A stretch of 64,000 nucleotides of DNA from Herbaspirillum sp. LeCh32-8 (lineage in GTDB: Bacteria > Pseudomonadota > Gammaproteobacteria > Burkholderiales > Burkholderiaceae_D). The notes beneath the pieces are model-generated. The model saw only the letters and a program-made list of their open reading frames with translations, did no database searches and was not told the origin of the DNA. Shown piece by piece: positions 7,621 through 21,748 of this stretch. Location of the stretch: the NCBI RefSeq assembly GCF_017814915.1, contig NZ_JAGIPZ010000003.1, positions 62,001 to 126,000 of the forward strand. Reading direction: 5' to 3'. A program made the position numbers and the translations under genes. Position 1 is the first letter of the stretch; every line of letters begins with the position of its first letter.

Positions 7621-9306
7621 TCAGGCGGCATGGGCCGGGCGCAACTGCCTGATCACAAAGCCATAGAGCTGCGGCTCGGCCAGCGGCCGGCTGTAGAAAT
7701 AGCCCTGGATCTCGTCGCAGGCCAGACGCTTGAGCCATTCACGTTGCTCGAAGGTCTCCACGCCCTCGGCGATAACATCGATGCCCAGCGTGTGGCCCAG
7801 GCCGATGACGGCCTGCACGATGGCGGCGTCATGGGAATTGGGTTTCAGTTGACGCACGAAAGACTGGTCGATCTTGAGCTTGTCGATGGGAAAACGCTTC
7901 AGGTAGGACAGGCTGGAGTAGCCGGTGCCGAAATCGTCGATGGACAACTTCAACCCCAGCGCGCGCAGGCGGTGCAGCAAGGCGATGGCGACTTCGGTCT
8001 GCTCCATCACCGCGCCTTCGGTGATTTCCAGTTCGAGGCTGGACGGCTTGATCCCGGTGCGCTCAAGCAGCGCCTCGATCTTGCGATAGAAGTCGGGATG
8101 GCGGAACTGCCGCGCCGAAATGTTCACCGCCACCACCAGGTCGCGGCCGCTCACTTCGCGCAGCGCGAGGATCTGCCAGCAGGCGCGTTCCAGCACCCAT
8201 TCGCCGATGGCGATCACCAGTCCCGACTCTTCGGCGATGGGGATGAATTCGCCCGGCGGCACCAGCTTGTCATCGCGACGCCAGCGCACCAGCGCCTCGA
8301 AGCCCAGCAGCTCTCCATCGGCCAGGCGCTGTTGCGGCTGGAAATGCAGCTCCAGCTCATCGCGCTCGACCGCGTGCATCAGCTGCGCCTCCAGGTCGAC
8401 GCGGCGGCTGGCCTGCGCGTTGAGCTCTTCCGAATACGCCACCAGCGCGCCGCCACCCTGCGCCCGCGCCGACTGCAAGGCGGCATCGGCATTACGCAGC
8501 AACGTGGCCGGCGCCTCTCCGTGGCGGGGATATTCGGCGGCGCCCAGGCTGAGATTGGAAAACACCTCGTGCATGCGGCCGCGATAGGGGCGCTGCATTT
8601 CCGCCTGCAACGCCGACAGCGCGCGTGCGAAGGCGGGCGACTGTACGGTGTGGCGATACAGGATCACGAAATTGGCGCCGTCCAGGCGGAACACTTCGCC
8701 GTCGTGCGCCGCCACCAGGGTGCGCAGGCGGCCGGCGATGTCGAGCATCATGTGGTCCGCAAACTCATGGCCGTAGGCGCCGATGACGCGCTCGAAGCGA
8801 TCGACGCTGCCCAGCACCACCACGTGGCTGCGACCGCGCAGGTCCTGCAGGCTGCGCTCCAGCGAGCGACGGTGGCCCAGGCCGGTCAGCGGATCGTGCG
8901 CGGCCTGGTGCGCCAGCGCGTCCTCGGAGCGAAAGCGCGCCCAGATGTGGTACATCATGAACAGGGCGGTGGTCAGCGCCAGCAGGTTGAACCAGTGCAC
9001 CAGGCGGGCGATGCGGTTGATGTTGACGTCCACCATGCCGCCTTCGCGCAGCAGCTCGGCGACGTCGCGCATGTTCTGCGCCGACAGTTCCCAGTGCACC
9101 AGCGGCTGGGCGGCGTTGCGGATATTCTCCACGGTCTGCTGCATGAAGACCGACAGGCCGATGCCGCAAGCCACCACGATGGTCAGCAACAGGTAGATCG
9201 GCCAGCGCGCGTGGCGCGCCAGCAAGTGGCGCAGGCGTTGGTCCTGGCCCAGGCGCATGCCCTGCTCCCAGGCGCCCGGCGCACGACCTTCCAAGAGATT
9301 TTCCAT
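7621..9306 (-). CDS. Membrane GGDEF-EAL protein, degenerate GGDEF
   Basis: About 561 residues: two membrane helices (about 33-53 and 100-120) around a short periplasmic loop, then a GGDEF domain and an EAL domain. The cyclase motif reads LDGANF instead of GGDEF, so cyclic-di-GMP synthesis is unlikely. The EAL domain keeps EAL (GFEALVRW), NISARQF, ELEITE, DDFGTGYSSL, KIDQSF and EGVET, so phosphodiesterase activity is expected. The start at 9306 has GGAG nine bases upstream; an alternative ATG at 9321 overlaps the stop of the receiver gene as TAATG. Either way it is translationally coupled to that gene. Confidence 0.9.
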   Translation of the reverse strand: MENLLEGRAPGAWEQGMRLGQDQRLRHLLARHARWPIYLLLTIVVACGIGLSVFMQQTVENIRNAAQPLVHWELSAQNMRDVAELLREGGMVDVNINRIARLVHWFNLLALTTALFMMYHIWARFRSEDALAHQAAHDPLTGLGHRRSLERSLQDLRGRSHVVVLGSVDRFERVIGAYGHEFADHMMLDIAGRLRTLVAAHDGEVFRLDGANFVILYRHTVQSPAFARALSALQAEMQRPYRGRMHEVFSNLSLGAAEYPRHGEAPATLLRNADAALQSARAQGGGALVAYSEELNAQASRRVDLEAQLMHAVERDELELHFQPQQRLADGELLGFEALVRWRRDDKLVPPGEFIPIAEESGLVIAIGEWVLERACWQILALREVSGRDLVVAVNISARQFRHPDFYRKIEALLERTGIKPSSLELEITEGAVMEQTEVAIALLHRLRALGLKLSIDDFGTGYSSLSYLKRFPIDKLKIDQSFVRQLKPNSHDAAIVQAVIGLGHTLGIDVIAEGVETFEQREWLKRLACDEIQGYFYSRPLAEPQLYGFVIRQLRPAHAA

Positions 9307-9320
9307 TACGCGTTTCTCCA

Positions 9321-9692
9321 TTACGCTGTTGAAGGTTTCTCCAGCAACTGCTCGATCTGCTCGACCATCGCATTGGCGTCGAACGGCTTGCCCATGAAGC
9401 CGGCGTTGCCGGCGGCGGTGACGCGCGCCTGCAGCGCGGCCGAAGGATAGGCGGTGATCACGATCACAGGAACGGCAAGGCGGCGGCAGCGGATGAACTC
9501 CAGCAGTTCGATGCCGCTCATGCCCGGCATCTGCACGTCGGTGATGATGCAATCGGCATCCTCCCAGGCGTGCGCGGCCACGAAGGCATCGGCCGAGGCA
9601 TAGCTGGCGACGGCCATGCCGAGCGACCTTACCAGCGCCGACAGCGCATCGCGCATCGAACCATCGTCATCCACTACCGCGATCTTGCTCAT
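9321..9692 (-). CDS. Single-domain response regulator (REC only)
   Basis: 123-residue receiver with the DDD pocket near residue 8, acceptor Asp in IITDVQMPG, Thr in VITAYP and Lys in GKPFDA; there is no output domain. A GTG at 9701 has a better-spaced AGGA site and would add three residues. The sequence resembles FixJ-type receivers. The downstream EAL protein starts at or inside its stop, so it probably modulates cyclic-di-GMP turnover by protein contact. A palindromic site of the shared TCATAC/GTATGA type lies 86 bp upstream. Confidence 0.88.
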   Translation of the reverse strand: MSKIAVVDDDGSMRDALSALVRSLGMAVASYASADAFVAAHAWEDADCIITDVQMPGMSGIELLEFIRCRRLAVPVIVITAYPSAALQARVTAAGNAGFMGKPFDANAMVEQIEQLLEKPSTA

Positions 9693-9777: not shown

Positions 9778-9793
9778 TCATACGTTGGTATGA
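9778..9793. promoter_or_regulatory. Palindromic operator candidate A (TCATAC-GTTG-GTATGA)
   Basis: Perfect 6-bp arms around GTTG. It lies between the FixJ-type regulator gene and the REC/EAL operon that reads leftward from 9692. A TAATCT hexamer on the minus strand (9749-9754) is centred 34 bp from the palindrome, placing the site near -44, a classic activator position. The same element recurs before three other genes between 11.9 and 18.6 kb. Confidence 0.65.
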
Positions 9794-9891
9794 GAGCAAA
9801 GAAGGCGGGGATGACAATACGTAAAGAAAGCTTAGGGAACGGTCAGGATGCCGGCCTGCCAGGCCTGCCATGTCGGCGGCGCCGGCCGCCG

Positions 9892-10539
9892 TCAGGCAGA
9901 CGGCTTGAGGCCGCCAAGCTCCAGCACCTGCGCCATGCGCACCAGATCGGCGAAGGTCTTGGCCTGCATCTTCTTCATGGCATGGCCGCGGTGGATCTTG
10001 ACCGTCACCTCGCTGGTGCCGAGTTCGCCGGCGATCTGCTTGTTCAGCAGGCCGCTCACGGCCAGCCACATCACCTCCGTCTCGCGTGGGGTCAGGCCGG
10101 CATAACGCGCATACAGGCCCGAGTTGGCCTGGCGCTGTTCGAGCTGGCGCCGGTCGCGTTCGTGGGCCGAGGCCACCGCGTCCAGCAGATCCTGGTCGCG
10201 AAACGGCTTGGTCAGGAAATCGATCGCGCCGGCCTTCATGGCGCGCACGCTCATCGGAATGTCGCCGTGCCCGGTCATCAGAATCACCGGCATGGTTTCG
10301 CCGGAGCGCGCCAGCTCGGCCTGGAAGTCGAGCCCGCTGATGCCGTGCAGGCGTACGTCCAGCAGCAGGCAGCCGGGAACGTCGGCAGCCGGGCGCTGCA
10401 GGAAGGCGGCGGCGCTAGCGTAGCCGCGCACCTGCAGGCCGACCGAGCGCAGCAGGCTGTCGAGCGCGCTGCGCAGCGACTCGTCGTCGTCGACGATGTA
10501 GACGATGGGGTCGCCGGCCGGTTTGGTCGCAGGCGTCAT
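9892..10539 (-). CDS. FixJ-type response regulator (REC + LuxR HTH)
   Basis: 215 residues. The receiver has IVDDDES, acceptor Asp in LLLDVRLHG, LMTGHGD and FLTKPF. The C-terminal LuxR-type helix-turn-helix is complete (LTPRETEVMWLAVSGLLNKQ then VTVKIHRGHAMKKM). It starts at 10539 inside the kinase gene's last codons (ATGA overlap), so the two form one transcript. It is the best candidate to bind the TCATAC-N4-GTATGA sites nearby. Confidence 0.93.
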   Translation of the reverse strand: MTPATKPAGDPIVYIVDDDESLRSALDSLLRSVGLQVRGYASAAAFLQRPAADVPGCLLLDVRLHGISGLDFQAELARSGETMPVILMTGHGDIPMSVRAMKAGAIDFLTKPFRDQDLLDAVASAHERDRRQLEQRQANSGLYARYAGLTPRETEVMWLAVSGLLNKQIAGELGTSEVTVKIHRGHAMKKMQAKTFADLVRMAQVLELGGLKPSA

Positions 10540-11630
10540 GTCGCCGCTCCCGCCGGCGGCGTCGGCAGGCTGAACGCCATGGCTGCGCCGCCGGGCTCAC
10601 GGTTCCAGGCGCGGATGACGCCGCCGTGCGTCTCGATGATGGAGCGGCAGATCGGCAGGCCCATGCCCATGCCGTCCTGCTTGGTGGTGAAGAAGGCGTC
10701 GAACAGGCGCTTGAGGTCATCGGGCGCGAAGCCCGGGCCGCTGTCGGCGATCTCGACCACCACGACGGACGCGCCGTCGCGCTCATCTCGCCGGGTGAAC
10801 GAACGCACGTCGATGCGACGCTCGCGCGCGCCGGCGCCGGCCATGGCCTGGGCCGCGTTCATCACCAGGTTGATCACCACCTGCTGCAGCTGGATCTTGT
10901 CGGCCATGACGGCAGGCAGATCGGCCTGCAGCTCCATCTTCAGCGCAGCACCGTGGCGCTGCAGTTCACGGCGCAGCAGGTCGCAGCTTTCGGCCACCAC
11001 CTGGTTGACGTCCAGCGCCGCAAACGACGGCGCGGCCTGGCTGGCCATGGCGCGAATGCGGCGGATCACTTCACTGGCGCGACGGGCATCGCGCTGCATC
11101 GCCTGCACGGCGCTGCGCGCCTCGCCCATGTCGGGTTCGGGCCGGTTCATCCAGCGCAGGCAAGCCTCGCCGTGCGTCTCGATGGCGGCCAGCGGTTGGT
11201 TCACCTCATGGGCGATGGACGCGGCCAGCTCGCCCAGCGTGCTGACGCGGCTGGCATGCGCCAACTGGCCGCGCGCGACATTGAGCGCCTCCTCGCGCTG
11301 CAGCAGGGCCAGCGCGGCGGCTTGTCCCTTCAGGGCCAGAAATGCGGTGATGGCGATGGCCGCCAAGCTCACCAGGCAACGCGCCAGCGCGGCGTCGCTT
11401 TGGTCGAACCCGTGCGAGCTGCCGTAGGCGATCAGCGTGAGCGCGATGCACACCACGGTGACCGCGATTACGCCGCGGCGCGGCCATACCGTCGCCGACA
11501 ACAGCACCACCGCGACGTAGAGTACGGCGATGGCGACGTCCAACGGCGTCAAGGCGTCGACGGCAAAGATCGCCGCTGTCAGCGCCGCTCCCACCACCGG
11601 CACCACCGACGAACGAGCAGAAATGAACAT
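10536..11630 (-). CDS. Membrane sensor histidine kinase of FixL/DctB type
   Basis: 364 residues. The first 110 hold three or four closely spaced membrane helices with almost no periplasmic loop, so the signal is probably sensed within the membrane. The kinase core has H-box ASIAHEVNQPLAAI, N-box INLVMNAAQAM, G1 DSGPGF and G2 DGMGMGLPICRS. The start at 11630 has GGGAG six bases upstream; a longer reading lacks one. It overlaps the FixJ-type regulator by 4 bp. Confidence 0.92.
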   Translation of the reverse strand: MFISARSSVVPVVGAALTAAIFAVDALTPLDVAIAVLYVAVVLLSATVWPRRGVIAVTVVCIALTLIAYGSSHGFDQSDAALARCLVSLAAIAITAFLALKGQAAALALLQREEALNVARGQLAHASRVSTLGELAASIAHEVNQPLAAIETHGEACLRWMNRPEPDMGEARSAVQAMQRDARRASEVIRRIRAMASQAAPSFAALDVNQVVAESCDLLRRELQRHGAALKMELQADLPAVMADKIQLQQVVINLVMNAAQAMAGAGARERRIDVRSFTRRDERDGASVVVVEIADSGPGFAPDDLKRLFDAFFTTKQDGMGMGLPICRSIIETHGGVIRAWNREPGGAAMAFSLPTPPAGAAT

Positions 11631-11814
11631 GCATTCTCCCGGCCGGTTCGACAACGCACCCGCCCGGACGTGCGCCGGATGTGTGCATGGTGCGCGCCCC
11701 TCGCGCTCGAACCGGATCAATCATTATGTTTATCGGGAAGAACCGCGCCTGCAGGCGATTCCCCTTTTTGCAGAACACGAGTATAAATGTGCGACGATCG
11801 AACGGATACGCGTA

Positions 11815-11830
11815 TTACACCAAAGTATAG
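11815..11830. promoter_or_regulatory. Weak operator candidate D
   Basis: On the minus strand CTATAC-TTTG-GTGTAA. It keeps the ATAC-nTTG-GT core of sites A and C but has mismatched outer bases. It lies 185 bp upstream of the kinase gene, so it could serve autoregulation of the kinase/FixJ operon. Confidence 0.35.
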
Positions 11831-11967
11831 GTAGGCCATGGCCGCTTTCAGGGGGAGCGGCGCGAAGGCGAACCCTGCGAACCCTGCGAATCCGGCACGG
11901 CATTCGCATGTAGCGAGAACAAGAACGACCGGTGCGACGCATCGAATTTCCAGACGGAAAAACAGTT

Positions 11968-11983
11968 TCATACTCTCGTATGA
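11968..11983. promoter_or_regulatory. Palindromic operator candidate B (TCATAC-TCTC-GTATGA)
   Basis: Perfect 6-bp arms identical to site A with a different spacer. It lies 66 bp before the MocR start. A TACGAT hexamer (12008-12013) is centred 35 bp downstream, nearly the same geometry as at site A. Confidence 0.65.
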
Positions 11984-12048
11984 TTGGCGCGTCCCGGGCG
12001 CCGGTCCTACGATGCGTTCATCCTGATTTCGCGCCTACGGGAGGCACA

Positions 12049-13536
12049 GTGAAGCTCTATGAACAACTCGCCGACACGATACGTCAACAGATAGAGGACG
12101 GCATCATGCTCGCCGGCGAGAAGATCCCCTCGGTGCGTCGCACCAGCCAGCAATACCAGCTGAGCATTTCGACGGTGATCCGCGCTTACCTGTTGCTGGA
12201 AAGCCGCGGCCTGATCGAGAGCCGTCCCCAGTCCGGTTACTTCGTGCGCACGCACCAGCAAGGTGCGCCCACGCATGCGGACATACCCGCCGCCGCCGGG
12301 CAGATGAGCCGCGACATGGCGCCGGCCGCGCTGGTGCTCTCCAACATGAGGTCGATCAATTCCGAGAACCGCATCCCGCTGGGCTCGCCCTATCCCGACC
12401 CGACGCTGTTCCCGTCGGCGCGCATCAGCCAGCTTGCGCACGGCCTGTACAAGCGCCGCGATCGCCAGGAACTGATGGGCTCGCTGCCGCCCGGCAACCC
12501 GGATCTGATCCGCCAGATTGCGCGCCGCCACCTGGAGACCGGGCTGCCGGTGAACCCTGCGGAGATCGTCGTCACCGAGGGCGCGACCGAGGCGATCAAT
12601 CTGTGCCTGCAAGCCATCTCCCGCCCCGGCGACGGCATCGCGGTGGAGGCGCCCACCTACTACGCGCTGCTGCACGCCATCGAGCGCATCGGCATGCGTG
12701 CCGTGCCCGTGCCTGCCGACGGCGTCAACGGCATCGACCTGCCGTCCCTGCACGCGGTGATCGAGGCCGGCCAGGTGGCCGGCGCGGTGGTCATGCCGAC
12801 CTTCCAGAACCCGATGGGATTCGAGATGCCCGAGCAGCGCAAGCGCGCGCTGGTCGACCTGATGGCGTCGCATCGCCTGCCGCTCATCGAGAACGATGTC
12901 TACGGCGAGCTGCATTACGCAGAACAGCGCCCGCGCACGCTGAAGGCCTTCGATCATCACGGCCTGGTGCTGTACTGCAGCTCCTTCTCCAAGAGCCTCT
13001 CGCCCGAGCACCGCATCGGCTGGACCCTGCCCGGCCGCTATCGCGAAGCGGTCGAGCGCCTCAAGTTCCTGAACACGGTATCGACGCCGTCGCACCCGCA
13101 ACGGGCGATTGCCGAGTACCTGCAAAACGAGGGCTACGATTTCCACCTGCGCCGCCTGCGCAAGACCCTGGCGCAGCAGGAGCGCATCATGCGCGCCACT
13201 GTGCTGCGCTTTTTCCCGGCGGGCACGCAGTGCTCCGAGCCGGGCGGCGGCTATCTGCTGTGGGTGACGCTGCCGCGCAGCATCCTGGCGATGGACTTGC
13301 ATGCACGCGCGCAGGCGGCAGGCATCAGTGTCGCCCCCGGCAACATGTTCAGCACCGACAACGCCTTCGCCCACTGCATCCGCCTCAACTACAGCTTCGC
13401 CTGGGATGCCGGGATCGAACAGGCCGTGCGCCTGCTGGGCGAGATCGCGCATGAACTGGCGGCGCGCGCCCCGGCGCAACCGGTTGCCGAGCCGCCGCGT
13501 CAGGCACCGCTGAACGGACTGACCAAAGCCAGCTGA
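12049..13536 (+). CDS. MocR/GntR-family regulator with aminotransferase-like domain
   Basis: 495 residues. An N-terminal GntR winged helix (IPSVRRTSQQYQLSISTV near residue 30) is linked to a class I aminotransferase fold that binds pyridoxal phosphate; the Schiff-base lysine lies in SSFSKSLSP and the N..NP segment reads PTFQNPMGF. Such proteins sense PLP or amino acids and regulate a neighbouring gene. The start is GTG at 12049 with GGGAGG four bases upstream; the longer ATG-started reading begins inside the operator region. Its last 37 bp overlap the end of the opposite-strand GGDEF-EAL gene. Confidence 0.9.
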   Translation: MKLYEQLADTIRQQIEDGIMLAGEKIPSVRRTSQQYQLSISTVIRAYLLLESRGLIESRPQSGYFVRTHQQGAPTHADIPAAAGQMSRDMAPAALVLSNMRSINSENRIPLGSPYPDPTLFPSARISQLAHGLYKRRDRQELMGSLPPGNPDLIRQIARRHLETGLPVNPAEIVVTEGATEAINLCLQAISRPGDGIAVEAPTYYALLHAIERIGMRAVPVPADGVNGIDLPSLHAVIEAGQVAGAVVMPTFQNPMGFEMPEQRKRALVDLMASHRLPLIENDVYGELHYAEQRPRTLKAFDHHGLVLYCSSFSKSLSPEHRIGWTLPGRYREAVERLKFLNTVSTPSHPQRAIAEYLQNEGYDFHLRRLRKTLAQQERIMRATVLRFFPAGTQCSEPGGGYLLWVTLPRSILAMDLHARAQAAGISVAPGNMFSTDNAFAHCIRLNYSFAWDAGIEQAVRLLGEIAHELAARAPAQPVAEPPRQAPLNGLTKAS

Positions 13537-16256
13537 GGCTGGCGCGACAAGCGTCCCGACTGGTCGCCGCGCAGCAGGAACTGCGCCGCGATGTCCTCCC
13601 GCGGCGCGGGCTTGCCGAACAGGTAGCCTTGGAAGGTCGTGCAGCCTATCTTGCGCAGCGCCGCCCACTGCTCGGCCGTCTCCACCCCTTCAGCCACCAC
13701 GTTCAGGCCCATGCTGTGCGCCAGGCTGACGATGGTGCGCACGATGGAGGAGGCGTGCGGCGTCAGCAGCATGTCCTGCACGAAGGAACGATCGATCTTG
13801 AGCTGGTCCAGCGGCAGCTTCTTGAGGTAGCTCAGCGAGGAATAGCCGGTGCCGAAATCATCCAGCGAGAAGCTCACGCCGACCTCCTTCAACACGCCCA
13901 TCTTGCAGATCAGGTCGTCGACGTCGGTGAGCAACATGCTCTCGGTCAACTCCAGCTTGAGACGGCGCGGATTGGCGCCGGTCCGGTTCAGGATCTCCAG
14001 CACACGCTGCGTGAAATCGGGCTGGCGGAACTGGCGCGCGCTGACGTTGACGGCGATGGTCAAGGGCTCGCTGCTGGCGTCGGCGGCCCACTCCACCAGT
14101 TGTTCACACGCCGTGGCCAGCGCCCATTCGCCGAATTCGACGATCAGGCCGGACTTCTCGGCCTGGGCGATGAAGGCGCCCGGGTAGACCAGGCCGCGCC
14201 GCGGATGGTGCCAGCGCATCAGCGCCTCCACCCCGCTCAGCTTGCCGTCGCTGCCGACGATGGGCTGGTAGTGGAGCAGCAGCTCATGCCGCACCAGCGC
14301 GTGGCGCAGATCGGTTTCCAGCATGGCGATCTGGTCCAGCACTTCCTGCATGTCGGGGCTGAAGAAGCGATAGGTATTGCGGCCGGCGGCCTTGGCTTCG
14401 TACATCGCCATGTCGGCCTGGCGCAGCAAGTCGTTGACGCTGTGGCGCCCGGCCCCGAACAGCACCACCCCCAGGCTGGGGGTGCTGCGCACTTCATAGC
14501 CCTCCATCGTGTAGCCGGCATTGAGCGATGCCAGTATCTTGCGGCACACGAACTGGGCATTGTTCTCGGCCTCCGCCGCATCGGCGCCCAGATCCTCCAG
14601 CAGCACCACGAACTCGTCCCCGCCCAGGCGCGCCACCGTATCGACCTCGCGCGTGACCTGCTTCAGGCGCAACGCCACCAGCTCCAGCAGCCGATCGCCG
14701 ACGTCATGACCCATGGTGTCGTTGAGGGACTTGAAGTTGTCGAGGTCGACGAAGATCACCGCGCCGTGATAGCCGGCGCGACCGCAGCGCGCCACGGCGT
14801 GCTCCAGGCGGTCGAGCAGTAGGCGCCGGTTGGGCAAGTTGGTCAGGCCGTCGTAATAGGCCAGGCGGGCGATCTCTTCCTCGGCCTCCTTGCGCGCGCT
14901 GATGTCCATGCGCGTGCCTACCATGCGCAGCGGCCGGCCTTGCGCATCGCGCTGCACCACCTTGCCGCGGCACTGGATCCAGACCCAGTGGCCGTCCTTG
15001 TGGCGCATCTGGTACTCGGCCTCGAAGGACTGCGCGCTGTCCGCCAGGTGCAGTTTCAGTGCATGGTTCAGCGCCTCCATCTGCTCCGGGTTGACCATGG
15101 CGCGCCATTCGCCGGGCGCGTCGAACTGGCAATCGGCGGCGTAGCCCAGCATCGCATTGCCGCGGGCATCGACGCGACGGGCGTCGCTGGGAATGTGCCA
15201 GTCCCACAAACCGAGGTTGGCGCCGGACAGGGCCAGCTCCATGCGTTCGCTGAGCTCGGCATGATGCGCCTCGCGCTGGCGCGTGAGCTCGCCCAACGCG
15301 CGACGACGACGCTGCATCAGTACCAGCGCCAGCGCGCCCAGCAGGCCGAACACGCACCACATGACCAAGTAGGACAGCGCCAGCTCGTGCCAACCGGCAT
15401 TGATGCGGGCCACGCTGCGCGAGAGACTGATGACGAAGGTCTTGTCCAGCCCCAGCTCGCCCTGGGTGACGGTGCGCTGCACCGCCATGCGGCGCTCGCC
15501 GTCGGGGGCGCTGGCGCGCAACACGCTGGAGACCGCGCCGCCGCGCAGGTGCAGGCGCAGGAAGTCGTCATCGTCGGCGCTGCTGCGCAGCTTGGCGGCG
15601 TTGGCCGGGACGAACAGCAGGCGCCGGCCGTCCTCGCCGGTGATGGCGCTGTTCATGTCGTCGGCGTAGAGCGCGGAGCGCATGACGGCATCGAAATAGT
15701 CCGGATTGAGGATGGCGCTGACGGCGCCTTCAATGCGGCCGTCGGCAGACATGATGGGCATCGACAGCTTGATGTTGAACACGCCCGGCGTGTTCTCGTA
15801 CGGCTGGGAAACGTACATGAGCTTGCGCGAATACATGCGCGCGATCTGCGAGAGAAAGTCGCGGTCGTCCAGGTGCCGGTCCTCGATGTCGTCGGCCGAG
15901 CGGGTGATGCGGCCCTCCGCGTCCAGCAACACGATGGCGCGCACGCCGGGCATGGCGCTCTTGAGCGAGCGCAGCAGCAGGCGTTCGCACTCGGCGTTGC
16001 AGCGGCGGTCATCGGCGGCGGCGCTGCGCGCTGCTTCGAGCGCATTGCGCACGCCCAGGAACTGATGCGCCAGGTTTTCTTCGATGATGTGCGCCTGCAA
16101 TTGCATGCGCGAGGTTTCCGACGCGTTGATCAGGCGCCGTTCCGACCAGACGAAATTGGCGATCAGCAATGCCGTGAACAACAGCACGGCGAAATAGGTG
16201 CTCCACTCGATGACGCTGCGACTGAAGCCGGGTTGTTCAAGTGATTCCCTGTGCAT
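13500..16256 (-). CDS. Cache-PAS-GGDEF-EAL cyclic-di-GMP protein
   Basis: 918 residues: membrane helix at about 18-38, a large periplasmic dCache-like sensor (about 40-290), a second helix near 295-315, a PAS/PAC domain (about 340-460, with WVWIQCRGKV), GGDEF, then EAL. The cyclase motif is intact (RLGGDEFVVLL), as are the EAL residues (GVEALMRW, NVSARQF, DDFGTGYSSL, KIDRSF, EGVET), so it may be bifunctional. GGGAG precedes the start, 21 bp after the stop of the chemoreceptor gene, so the two form an operon. Its 3' end is antisense to the MocR gene. Confidence 0.93.
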   Translation of the reverse strand: MHRESLEQPGFSRSVIEWSTYFAVLLFTALLIANFVWSERRLINASETSRMQLQAHIIEENLAHQFLGVRNALEAARSAAADDRRCNAECERLLLRSLKSAMPGVRAIVLLDAEGRITRSADDIEDRHLDDRDFLSQIARMYSRKLMYVSQPYENTPGVFNIKLSMPIMSADGRIEGAVSAILNPDYFDAVMRSALYADDMNSAITGEDGRRLLFVPANAAKLRSSADDDDFLRLHLRGGAVSSVLRASAPDGERRMAVQRTVTQGELGLDKTFVISLSRSVARINAGWHELALSYLVMWCVFGLLGALALVLMQRRRRALGELTRQREAHHAELSERMELALSGANLGLWDWHIPSDARRVDARGNAMLGYAADCQFDAPGEWRAMVNPEQMEALNHALKLHLADSAQSFEAEYQMRHKDGHWVWIQCRGKVVQRDAQGRPLRMVGTRMDISARKEAEEEIARLAYYDGLTNLPNRRLLLDRLEHAVARCGRAGYHGAVIFVDLDNFKSLNDTMGHDVGDRLLELVALRLKQVTREVDTVARLGGDEFVVLLEDLGADAAEAENNAQFVCRKILASLNAGYTMEGYEVRSTPSLGVVLFGAGRHSVNDLLRQADMAMYEAKAAGRNTYRFFSPDMQEVLDQIAMLETDLRHALVRHELLLHYQPIVGSDGKLSGVEALMRWHHPRRGLVYPGAFIAQAEKSGLIVEFGEWALATACEQLVEWAADASSEPLTIAVNVSARQFRQPDFTQRVLEILNRTGANPRRLKLELTESMLLTDVDDLICKMGVLKEVGVSFSLDDFGTGYSSLSYLKKLPLDQLKIDRSFVQDMLLTPHASSIVRTIVSLAHSMGLNVVAEGVETAEQWAALRKIGCTTFQGYLFGKPAPREDIAAQFLLRGDQSGRLSRQPQLALVSPFSGA

Positions 16257-16277
16257 GATGGACTCCCGGTGTGCAGT

Positions 16278-17960
16278 TCACATGCCGCTGCGTGCGACCA
16301 GCCGCAAAGGCGGATGGGCGCCGGGCAGCGACGGCGTGCCGTGGATGTCTTGGCTGTCATGGACGCCGGGAACATCCCCGGCCGGCGCATCGGCCTCGCG
16401 CATGGCGTGCTGGCCCGGCAGTTGAAAGCGCGCGGCCGCGCGTTCCAGCTGCTGCGCCTGGCGGCTCAGGGCCGCGGCGGCAGCGGCGGTCTCTTCAACC
16501 AGCGCGGCGTTCTGCTGGGTCACGTGATCCATCTGCGTGACGGCGCTGTTGATCTGGTCGATGCCGCCGCTCTGCTCATTGCTGGCCATGGCGATCTCGG
16601 ACATGGTGTCGGCCACGCCGCGCACCTGGCTCACCACCTGGGCGATGGTGTGGCCGGCATCCTGTACCTGGCGTCCACCCTCCTCGACCTGGCGGATCGA
16701 GTCGTCGACCAGGCGCTTGATCTCGTGCGCCGAAGTCGCGGCACGCTGCGCCAGTACGCGCACTTCGCCCGCCACTACCGCGAAGCCGCGGCCGGAATCC
16801 CCGGCGCGGGCGGCTTCCACCGCGGCGTTGAGGGCCAGGATGTTGGTCTGGAAGGCGATGGTGTCGATGATGGCAGTGATGCCGACCACCTCGCGCGCGG
16901 TGCGGTCGATGGCGGACATGGTGCCGATCACGCGCTCCACCGCGGCCCCGCCCTCGCGGGCGGCGTCGGCGGCCGCGCCCACCAGGCGGCTGGCCTCGCG
17001 CGCGCGGTCGGCGTTCTGGTGCACCGCCACCGTCAGTTGCTCCAGCGAGGATGCGGTTTCTTCCAGCGACGAGGCCTGCGACTCGGTGCGCGCCGACAAA
17101 TCCATGCTGCCCTGGGCGATCTCGCGCGAAGCCTGCAGCATCGAGGCCGAGCCGTCGGCCACGTCACTGATGATGCCGACCAGCGCGCCGTTCATTTGCT
17201 CCAGCGCCTGCAACAGGCGCGCGGTTTCATCGCTGCCGGTTGCGCCCACGCGCTGGCGCAGGTCGCCCTGCGCCACGGTCTGGGCAAAGCCCACCGCACG
17301 CGCCAGCGGGCGCGTAATGCTGCGGCTGATCCACCATGCCAGCAGTGCCGCCGCCAGCAACGTGGCCGCGCCCAACGCGATCATCAGCTCACGCGCCGAG
17401 CTTACGATGCGGCGCGATTCGCCGCGGCTGTCGCGCACGATCTGGTCCTGGTACTGCACCAGCGCCTGGATCCTGGACTGCAACTTCTCGATAGCGGGAA
17501 TCACTTGGGTGCGCACCAGCGCGGCGGCCTGCTTGTCTTCATCGCGCCCGAGCAGCGTGCGTACGCGGGCAAACGCTTCGCCGAATACCCGGCGCGACTC
17601 GCGCACCTCGCCCACCAGCCGCTTGCCTTCGCTGCTGCTGACCAGCCGATCCAGGAGGTCGAGCGCGTCCCTGATGGTGGCGATGTTCTGGTCCACCCGC
17701 GCCAGCGTCCGGGCTTCCTCGGCCTTGTCGTCGATGATGAACAGCGACAGCAGGCGGGCGGCGTTGGAGCGGGTCAGCGCGTCGATGTTGCGGGCCGCCT
17801 CCAGCTTGGTCCAGTCCTGGTCCATCACGCGCTCCTCAATGTCCGAGATGCGCATCACCTGGCTGATGGCCACCGCGATCAATACCGCCATCGCCGCCAG
17901 CACGATGGCGAACGCGCCGCCCAGGCGCGCCCCGATGGATAGATTTGCAGCACCGCCCAT
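16278..17960 (-). CDS. Methyl-accepting chemotaxis protein
   Basis: 560-residue transducer: first membrane helix about 12-32, a four-helix-bundle ligand domain to about 190, second helix about 193-213, HAMP to about 265, then the long signalling coiled coil with the conserved hairpin tip ([20 protein letters not shown]). The C-terminus is a proline-rich tail without an NWETF-type CheR-binding pentapeptide. GAGGGG precedes the ATG. The next gene downstream encodes a cyclic-di-GMP protein 21 bp away, so one promoter may set both chemotactic input and second-messenger output. Confidence 0.94.
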
Positions 17961-18324
17961 GTCGATCCCCTCTTTTCAAGAAAAAAGCTTCCCTGCCGCG
18001 TCCACGGGATGTGGCGCGGGTCACGGTACGGCTGCGTGGAAGCCTCTGATAGCGACATCCCGTTTCGCCGTGGAAAGTGAGCTGCCCGTGCGGGCGGCTC
18101 GGCTTTGACGGTGGTGCGGGATCCTGGAACGAAGTCTAGGTTTTTGCCAGTGCGGTCGGGGCGCACACAGTACACAGCATGCGAGGAGCACAGTTTTGCG
18201 TGCGATCCGGAGGATGCGGTACAGATCAGACCAAGGTATGGGGAACACAGACGATGGTGGGATGGCGCGATGCGCCAGGGCTTTCTATGCTTGCGTTCAA
18301 CCAAGTCCTAGCGGGGATGTCATC
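17961..18324. other. 364-bp divergent intergenic region
   Basis: Upstream of the chemoreceptor (leftward) and the 78-residue orphan (rightward). The only distinct element is operator candidate E at 18226-18241. No sigma-28 promoter could be recognised with confidence before the chemoreceptor gene. Confidence 0.6.
18226..18241. promoter_or_regulatory. Operator candidate E (TCAGAC-CAAG-GTATGG)
   Basis: Matches the TCATAC-N4-GTATGA element with one change in each arm, and its spacer is the reverse complement of site C's CTTG. It lies 84 bp before the start of the 78-residue gene, the same distance class as sites A, B and C. Confidence 0.5.
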
Positions 18325-18561
18325 GTGCATATCGAAGTCATGGGCCAGTACGAGATCGTGCTGGAAGCCTTTCGCAACCTGAGCAATACGTCGTGGATGC
18401 CGTTCGTCACCATCTACCGCGGGCGCTCGGCGTCATACCAGAGCATCTGCGTGATGCAGCGCCAGCGCGTCGACGGCGGCGTGCCCGCGATGAGCCGCGA
18501 GCAGGCGATCGAGGCGGCGCGCAACTACGCTGCGCAGCGCATCGCGCGCGGCAACCTGTGA
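18325..18561 (+). CDS. Hypothetical protein, 78 aa
   Basis: Small soluble protein without signal peptide or membrane segment. The start is GTG at 18325, with GGGGA seven bases upstream; it opens VHIEVMGQYEIVLEAF and ends in a helix-rich segment (SREQAIEAARNYAAQ). The centre (WMPFVTIYRGRSASYQS) resembles a small beta-strand domain. An ATG at 18340 is the next possible start; longer readings upstream lack a binding site and read through the operator. I do not recognise the family. A TCATAC/GTATGA-type site upstream suggests it belongs to the local FixJ-type regulon. Confidence 0.6.
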   Translation: MHIEVMGQYEIVLEAFRNLSNTSWMPFVTIYRGRSASYQSICVMQRQRVDGGVPAMSREQAIEAARNYAAQRIARGNL

Positions 18562-18577
18562 CGGCGGCGACACGTCC

Positions 18578-18593
18578 TCATACCTTGGTATAG
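18578..18593. promoter_or_regulatory. Operator candidate C (TCATAC-CTTG-GTATAG)
   Basis: One mismatch from the perfect palindrome of sites A and B and sharing the nTTG spacer of A. It lies 74 bp upstream of the SDR start and just past the stop of the 78-residue gene. Confidence 0.6.
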
Positions 18594-18666: not shown

Positions 18667-19500
18667 ATGGATACCTGGCTGATCACCAACGCCCACAGCA
18701 GCTTCGGGCTGGAACTCACCGCTGAATTGCTGGAGCGCGGGCATGCGGTCGCCGCCGCCGTGCGCAGCGAGGAAGAACGCCGCAGCTACGAGGCCCGCTT
18801 CGCCGCGCGGCCGCTGTGCTATGTGCTGGACGTGACCGACAGCGACGCGGTGCGCGCCACGGTGGACGAGATCGAGGCGCTCACCGGCGGCATCGCGGTG
18901 GTGGTCAACAACGACGGCGCCGGTTATCGCGGCATGATCGAGGAAGTCACCCTGCATGAGATGCGCGCCCACTTCGAGGCCAACGTATTCGGCGCCATCG
19001 CGGTGATCCAGGCGGTGCTGCCCTACATGCGCGGGCGGCGCGCCGGGCGCATCTTCAACATCCTGCCTGCGGCCTGCCAGGAAGAGGCGCTGGGCGCGGG
19101 CGTCTACCACGGCAGCAGGTCGGCGCTGGAGGGCATGACCGAAGCGCTGGCGCGCGAGGTCGCGGCCTTCGGCATTCACGCCACGGCGGTGACGCCGGGT
19201 TGCTTCGCCGACGGCGAGGGCCGCCTGCAGGCCGACGGCGGCGGTCGCGCGCGACGCCGCATCGCCGACTACCACACACCCGGCGCGCGCCGCGCCGGCG
19301 GCCCGGCCAACCTGGGCGATCCGGAACGGGCAGCCCATGCGCTGCTGCTGGTGGCGGCCACGCGCCGTCCGCCTCGCCGCCTGCTGCTGGGCAGTGCGGC
19401 GCTGGACAACGTGCGCCGCAAGCTGGGCGACATGCAGGAAGAACTGAATGATTGGGAACTGGTGTCGATGAACACCGACCTCATGGCGCGCCGCGCATGA
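18667..19500 (+). CDS. SDR-fold protein with degenerate active site
   Basis: 277 residues with the overall short-chain dehydrogenase layout, but several landmarks are changed. The cofactor loop, normally TGxxxGxG, reads TNAHSSFG; the structural NNAG reads NNDG. Thirteen residues before the catalytic tyrosine, where serine is expected, there is proline; and the YxxxK motif reads YHGSR, with Arg for Lys. Only the tyrosine and perhaps the Asn survive, so normal dehydrogenase chemistry is doubtful; it may bind a nucleotide without turnover. An arginine-rich insert (about 195-220) is atypical. It has operator candidate C upstream and ends 6 bp from the convergent TMEM175 gene. Confidence 0.8.
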   Translation: MDTWLITNAHSSFGLELTAELLERGHAVAAAVRSEEERRSYEARFAARPLCYVLDVTDSDAVRATVDEIEALTGGIAVVVNNDGAGYRGMIEEVTLHEMRAHFEANVFGAIAVIQAVLPYMRGRRAGRIFNILPAACQEEALGAGVYHGSRSALEGMTEALAREVAAFGIHATAVTPGCFADGEGRLQADGGGRARRRIADYHTPGARRAGGPANLGDPERAAHALLLVAATRRPPRRLLLGSAALDNVRRKLGDMQEELNDWELVSMNTDLMARRA

Positions 19501-21112: not shown

Positions 21113-21748
21113 ATGATGGATACCAGCATGGACAGAACAGTATTTGTCGTCGACGACGACGGCATGGTCAGGGAAGCGCTGCTGCGCCTGCTGGCGTCGG
21201 CCGGCTACCAAGCGCTGGGCTTCGCCTCGCCCGGGCAATTCTTGCAACAGCGGCTGCCCGGCACGCCCTGCTGCCTGATCCTGGACATGAAGATGCCGGA
21301 CTCGGACGGCTTTGACGTGGTGCGCCGGCTGGAACAGCGCGGCGACGCCATCCCGGTGATCTTCATCTCCGGCTATGGCACCATACCCGACACGGTGCAG
21401 GCGATGAAGGCCGGCGCGCACGAGTTCCTGACCAAACCCATCCACGGCGACCGCCTGCTCGAAGCGGTGGAAGAGGCGCTCACCATCGCCGGCAGCCATC
21501 TTGCCGCGCGCACCGAACGGGCGGCCTCGACACTGCGCCTGGAAACGCTGACGCCGCGCGAGCGCGAGGTGCTGGAGCTGGCCATCGGCGGCCTGCTCAA
21601 CAAGCAGATCGCCACCGAGCTGGGCATCAGCGAGATCACGGTGAAGGTGCACAAACGCCGCGTGATGGACAAGATGCAAACCAAGACCCTGGCCGACCTG
21701 GTGCGCGCCGCCGAGCGGCTGCAGATCAGCAGCGCCAGGACACGCTGA
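21113..21748 (+). CDS. FixJ-type response regulator (orphan)
   Basis: 211 residues: receiver with VVDDDGM, acceptor Asp in LILDMKMPD, FISGYG and FLTKPI; LuxR-type HTH with LTPREREVLELAIGGLLNKQ and VKVHKRRVMDKM. No kinase gene is adjacent, so its partner is elsewhere, possibly one of the kinases at 10536 or 29124. An unknown 132-residue gene follows 26 bp later. Three ATGs compete near the start (21113, 21116, 21128); none has a strong binding site. Confidence 0.9.
   Translation: MMDTSMDRTVFVVDDDGMVREALLRLLASAGYQALGFASPGQFLQQRLPGTPCCLILDMKMPDSDGFDVVRRLEQRGDAIPVIFISGYGTIPDTVQAMKAGAHEFLTKPIHGDRLLEAVEEALTIAGSHLAARTERAASTLRLETLTPREREVLELAIGGLLNKQIATELGISEITVKVHKRRVMDKMQTKTLADLVRAAERLQISSARTR

Follow-up and report, generated by a model that had tools for sequence, protein, structure and literature searches.

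TCATAC-N4-GTATGA, a predicted operator of a FixJ-type response regulator in Herbaspirillum

Genes and palindromes at the locus

In Herbaspirillum sp. LeCh32-8, a stretch of 64,000 nucleotides (here called the window) contains genes for a histidine kinase and a FixJ/StyR-type response regulator, situated between an operon coding for a single-domain response regulator (REC) and an EAL phosphodiesterase on one side and a gene for a MocR-type regulator on the other (Table 1). Copies of the palindrome TCATAC-N4-GTATGA lie upstream of the REC/EAL operon and of MocR, and a variant is present in the kinase-regulator promoter. From comparative genomics, it is quite probable that this element is the operator of the regulator encoded at 9892-10539, which would thereby control its own operon, REC-EAL, and MocR.

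The regulator exceeded the cut-offs of both Response_reg (95.2 bits) and GerE (62.7 bits), which placed it among NarL/FixJ-type proteins, and its nearest solved chains were 1yio, which we take to be StyR, and 5xso. The start of the kinase gene is uncertain (TTG at 11720 or ATG near 11630). A PAS match was looked for in the window kinase and none was found, and 41 of the 46 kinases scanned matched PF00989 (11 of 56 long or fused kinase frames were left out before counts were made). The EAL protein has no GGDEF motif and keeps EALVRW, DDFGTG, and EGVET, a set of motifs consistent with breakdown of cyclic di-GMP (c-di-GMP).

The own genome (5.03 Mb in 43 contigs) contains only two perfect copies of the palindrome, those at 9778 and 11968, both inside the window. 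A first-pass annotation of the same DNA had listed these two copies, and their letters were confirmed, as was one mismatch per arm at 18226 (TCAGACCAAGGTATGG). The copy at 18578 (TCATACCTTGGTATAG), for which a single mismatch had been given, has two. At 11815 (TTACACCAAAGTATAG), the description as a weaker copy holds with respect to the consensus, but this site ranks among the best conserved. The annotated spacing of 66 to 86 bp between site and start codon agreed with our count of intervening bases (REC, 85; MocR, 65; a 78-residue orphan, 83; a short-chain dehydrogenase/reductase [SDR] family protein, 73), and the -10-like hexamers placed 34 to 35 bp from the sites at 9778 and 11968 were found at 34 (REC) and 35 bp (MocR). 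With up to two mismatches allowed, the window contained four matches, compared with a mean of 0.38 and a maximum of 3 in 100 shuffles. A weight matrix trained on 22 REC, MocR, and CheY sites from other genomes scored the four window sites at 27.8, 24.5, 18.1, and 17.3 and the next-best window site at 6.4; the expected number of sites scoring at least 14 was 0.03 per 64 kb (60 first-order simulations).

Table 1. Genes, palindrome copies, and promoter elements in the window
Feature	Position	Strand	Remarks
EAL phosphodiesterase, degenerate GGDEF	7621..9321	-	ATG overlaps REC stop codon
Single-domain response regulator (REC)	9321..9692	-	Similar genes come after fixJ in distant loci
-10-like hexamer TAATCT, REC promoter	9754-9749	-	TAA-CTGCAA block conserved, spacing fixed
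Perfect palindrome, predicted REC/EAL operator	9778..9793	. (operon on minus strand)	Centre 34 bp from -10-like TAATCT
FixJ/StyR-type response regulator, proposed binder	9892..10539	-	Response_reg and GerE; co-occurs with sites
Histidine kinase, hydrophobic N-terminal part	10536..11720	-	HisKA and HATPase_c
Variant site, kinase-regulator promoter	11815..11830	.	Centre 40 bp from TATACT at 11785-11780 (minus strand)
Perfect palindrome, predicted MocR operator	11968..11983	. (gene on plus strand)	Runs into -35-like TTGGCG
-10-like hexamer TACGAT, MocR promoter	12008..12013	+	35 bp from site centre
MocR-type regulator	12049..13536	+	GntR and Aminotran_1_2
GGDEF-EAL protein	13500-16256	-	Possible divergent target of 18226
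Methyl-accepting chemotaxis protein (MCP)	16278-17960	-	Possible divergent target of 18226
Two-mismatch site between MCP (-) and orphan (+)	18226..18241	.	Kept in 5/10 orphan-bearing genomes
78-residue orphan	18325..18561	+	Orthologues in 10/34 genomes, own included
Two-mismatch site before SDR	18578..18593	.	Identical in G014; 3 mismatches in G045
SDR-family protein, doubtful regulon member	18667..19500	+	adh_short

Co-occurrence of palindrome and regulator

We computed how well the sites are conserved, where they lie, and whether they accompany the regulator across 34 Herbaspirillum genomes, 11 of which contain the regulator (E value of at most 1e-75; 65 to 100% identity). All 18 perfect palindromes fell into 10 of these 11 genomes and none into the other 23 (one-sided Fisher test, 8e-8, not corrected for kinship); the eleventh, G001, has a one-mismatch site instead. 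With up to one mismatch, 41 places were counted in the 11 regulator-bearing genomes versus 21 for the control, and 29 versus 22 in the remaining 23. Seven of the perfect copies precede REC, seven precede MocR, three precede cheY, and one lies at G022:C34:174911. The last of these (locus L119) is positioned ∼70 bp upstream of an Iron_transport gene that has an FTR1 permease gene in its vicinity, and it adjoins a stretch that looks by eye like a Fur box.

At the REC promoter, the site was found in the same place with no more than one mismatch in all 11 regulator-bearing genomes and was perfect in seven. The 11815 site stayed within two mismatches of the window letters in all 11 and was identical in five, own genome included. 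MocR orthologues (68 to 100% identity) occur in 10 of the 34 genomes, and this MocR type is confined to regulator-bearing ones (10 of 11). Nine of the ten have the MocR site with at most one mismatch, and G041 retains a three-mismatch remnant in place. In G048, the site before MocR has been kept although MocR and the kinase gene sit on different contigs.

Another conserved position came from cheY orthologues present in G007, G014, G041, and G045 (with L117, L118, L256, and L257 among the loci), all of them regulator-bearing genomes. In each of the four, a site lies 104 to 117 bp upstream, accompanied by REC-like promoter letters; three sites are perfect and one has a single mismatch. Ten other CheY-like loci examined had no site better than four mismatches (16 of 30 CheY loci and 4 of 30 MCP loci fetched were left out before counts). 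Since the best CheY matches of the own genome reach at most 65%, it seems to be without that cheY. The annotated picture of a local regulon thus needs widening: perfect cheY sites occur in relatives, and there are further candidates elsewhere in the own genome.

Beyond the genus, we searched 78 FixJ relatives of 56 to 66% identity (the best 80 of a longer list minus two from Herbaspirillum), from 1,500 bases before to 2,100 bases after the start of the fixJ match and with up to two mismatches. This yielded 57 matches in 45 loci versus 2 for the reversed control, and the same search gave no matches in 14 loci of FixJ paralogues (45 to 53%). Over all 80 loci (1.48 Mb), 6, 15, and 81 places had 0, 1, and 2 mismatches, compared with 0, 0, and 12 for the control. 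A site is located directly 3' of fixJ in 37 of the 78 loci; apart from a Bradyrhizobium type with the left arm CAAAC, these include records of Pseudomonas, Rhizobium, Ensifer, Neorhizobium, Xanthobacter, Ancylobacter, Aquabacter, Edaphobacter, and Pedosphaera. In 54 of the 80 loci, a crude gene caller placed a single-domain REC frame next after fixJ (30 of the 54 frames were left out of the REC comparison before counts). Of the two arms, that on the promoter side (GTATGATT) has been conserved better in the REC promoters of distant loci. Further distant sites precede other single-domain REC genes, ferritin-like (Dps-type) genes in five Xanthobacter/Ancylobacter loci (L253, L189, L210, L217, and L227, with a Pfam Ferritin match in both loci tested, L253 and L189), and a LysR-type gene in four Pseudomonas loci (one checked with Pfam). 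Within the order, a survey of 250 genomes, in which up to 12 candidates were scored for each genome, detected relatives of the regulator in at least three, own genome included.

Predicted mechanism and competing explanations

According to the mechanism we propose, the neighboring kinase would phosphorylate the FixJ-type regulator, which would then bind as a dimer, with one helix-turn-helix (HTH) per arm and the site centre ∼43 bp upstream of the transcription start, and function as a class II activator. As core targets, we propose the kinase-regulator operon itself (through 11815), the adjacent REC gene together with the EAL gene in Herbaspirillum, and MocR. A secondary target would be the orphan, possibly joined by the divergent MCP/GGDEF-EAL genes; the SDR is doubtful. 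Operators of class II activators are centred at about -40 to -44. If the -10-like boxes are correct, the REC and MocR sites are centred at ∼-43 (34 to 35 bp to the box centre; starts predicted). This spacing, together with the better-kept promoter-side arm, fits a dimeric class II activator.

Several findings weigh against this interpretation. The own genome contains 36 places with up to two mismatches versus 42 for the reversed control and thus lacks enrichment; the genome-wide bias toward these promoters, put forward in the first-pass annotation as a check, was therefore not borne out, and we rejected the genome-wide motif count as proof. Among the distant fixJ loci, 33 of 78 had no match, and a single Bradyrhizobium-type sequence accounts for 21 of the 37 sites 3' of fixJ. 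Four further Burkholderiales loci were split evenly between two with a site of at most two mismatches and two without. G038 (L022), from another genus, has one perfect palindrome, its regulator status resting on the matches listed. An MCP gene elsewhere in the own genome (G000:C40:77357; L121:7238-9060), whose promoter carries a site at 77237 (TCATACCTTCGTATAG) followed by TTGGCGG, as at MocR, has orthologues in G003 and G021 that retain a like site in genomes without the regulator, and for this reason the gene was downgraded from firm membership. Of the 10 genomes with an orphan orthologue, five had a promoter site of up to two mismatches (G000, G014, G045, G007, and G048), and none was found in G005, G010, G011, G041, or with the weak G013 orthologue. 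The SDR site is similarly patchy (at most two mismatches in two of three genomes with a close orthologue, three in the third).

Because of the non-enriched genome, the missing distant sites, the MCP site without a regulator, and the patchy sites, our gradings differ between promoters. REC/EAL, MocR, and the kinase-regulator pair are likely targets with high confidence, the last, through 11815, being a correction to the first-pass annotation. The orphan is a member with moderate confidence, and confidence in the SDR is low. The shared output claimed earlier for these genes is accordingly retained for REC/EAL and MocR, held moderately for the orphan, and weak for the SDR; the FixJ-type regulator as the likely binder is supported by the cross-genome co-occurrence.

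Other explanations of the sites were weighed on the same data. The four window copies might be a functionless chance cluster, as the non-enriched own genome would allow; considering that the same promoters keep their sites across species and that the sites co-occur with the regulator, we regard this as extremely improbable. Nor is it at all probable that another LuxR/FixJ-type regulator binds them, such as that encoded at 21113-21748, whose gene is close to the cluster in G014, G007, G005, G022, and G045: regulators with the 21113 HTH are present in genomes that have no perfect palindrome (e.g., G008 and G012), and 14 loci of 21113-like paralogues are without the site. MocR itself could bind the sites, regulating its own gene and its neighbors, with the FixJ-type protein having other targets. 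The MocR-type protein GabR recognizes ATACCA repeats, the window MocR type is confined to regulator-bearing genomes, and the site before MocR is perfect even in G048, apart from the kinase. However, in G001 the REC and kinase sites persist while the window MocR type is represented only by a 54% paralogue, and the motif accompanies FixJ relatives in many distant loci, always at the position of a FixJ-type activator, so that we consider binding by MocR improbable.

A separate question is whether the FixJ-type protein binds the sites and chiefly represses. A site touching the -35 region could block polymerase, and the spacing at the kinase-promoter variant differs (40 bp), but the -35 hexamers are of poor quality, and a centre held constantly near -43 is where class II activators usually sit. 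PMC2442086 describes phosphorylated StyR as activating from ∼-40, at a high-affinity site, and StyR as repressing too once a second site is filled. A mainly repressing role is thus unlikely, and activation from an operator centred near -43 would be the expected mode of action.

Two side results came from the same motif searches. The narrower core ATACC-N2-GGTAT (51 forward places versus 22 for the control in 34 genomes) occurs in regulator-bearing genomes and also in those that lack the regulator, and was therefore rejected as the discriminating form. When the weight matrix was applied genome-wide to the 36 places with up to two mismatches, seven scored above 16, namely, the four window sites, C40:77237, C33:146799 (17.7, before a glyoxalase-like gene), and C22:305582 (16.2).

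Relation to known systems and less certain members

The regulator resembles StyR, TodT, TmoT, and TutB in its FixJ-type REC and HTH architecture. PMC5874301 reports that StyR-like proteins read ATAAAC-N4-GTTTAT. The StyR/TodT operators and TCATAC-N4-GTATGA share a layout of two 6-base arms and a 4-base spacer, with AC before the spacer and GT after it, and differ in the arms (TCATAC/GTATGA here). Of the StyR contact residues named there (Lys175, Val176, and His179), the window regulator keeps Lys and has Ile for Val and Gly for His, which by these residues places it outside the StyR subfamily. The operator neighbors are signaling genes here, in contrast to aromatic catabolism for StyR, TodT, TmoT, and TutB. 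The domain layout is that of FixL-FixJ, and FixJ (PRK09390) was the best NCBIfam match of the regulator, at 205.4 bits against a cut-off of 255; another difference from FixL-FixJ is the kinase without a PAS match. For the window MocR, with its GntR and aminotransferase-like domains, PdxR was the best NCBIfam match, at 273.9 bits against a cut-off of 320, and, unlike in MocR-type systems, this protein would be a target and not the likely binder. A literature search, from which most subscription papers were out of reach, found no account of the operator or of the module considered below.

Tentatively, the kinase, the FixJ-type regulator, the operator, and the single-domain REC may constitute a portable, self-regulating module, in which REC would close a phosphorelay feedback loop and outputs would be lineage specific: in Herbaspirillum, c-di-GMP breakdown and MocR, joined in some species by cheY; in Xanthobacter/Ancylobacter, ferritin-like genes; and in Pseudomonas, a LysR-type gene. 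The arrangement is represented among Proteobacteria and by single records from Acidobacteria and Verrucomicrobia. A two-component module recurring in distant bacteria would thereby gain a candidate operator and a target list, and the role of the companion REC becomes testable. Specificity can be compared between the helix KIHRG with TCATAC arms and KVHRH of StyR with ATAAAC arms. In Herbaspirillum, one sensor would be linked to a MocR regulator and c-di-GMP breakdown, with chemotaxis signaling added in some species.

The less certain members lie at the far end of the cluster. At the SDR promoter, no convincing -10 hexamer was found for the 18578 site. The first-pass annotation had taken the SDR for a nonenzymatic protein, which is an uncertain reading: none of the three orthologues has an unaltered catalytic Ser region, and the window copy has Arg for Lys, but the G014 and G045 orthologues retain Tyr-x3-Lys. 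For the orphan, no Pfam match (searched with the enclosing 121-aa reading frame) and no NCBIfam match was obtained. Its site lies ∼55 bp from the -10-like hexamer, about two helical turns beyond the REC/MocR spacing, and, being also upstream of the divergent MCP/GGDEF-EAL genes, may not serve the orphan alone. The orphan promoter (18155-18260) also contains repeated ACACAG/GTACAG words, which are perhaps direct repeats for a second regulator and are kept in G010, G011, and G041, where this promoter lacks the palindrome.

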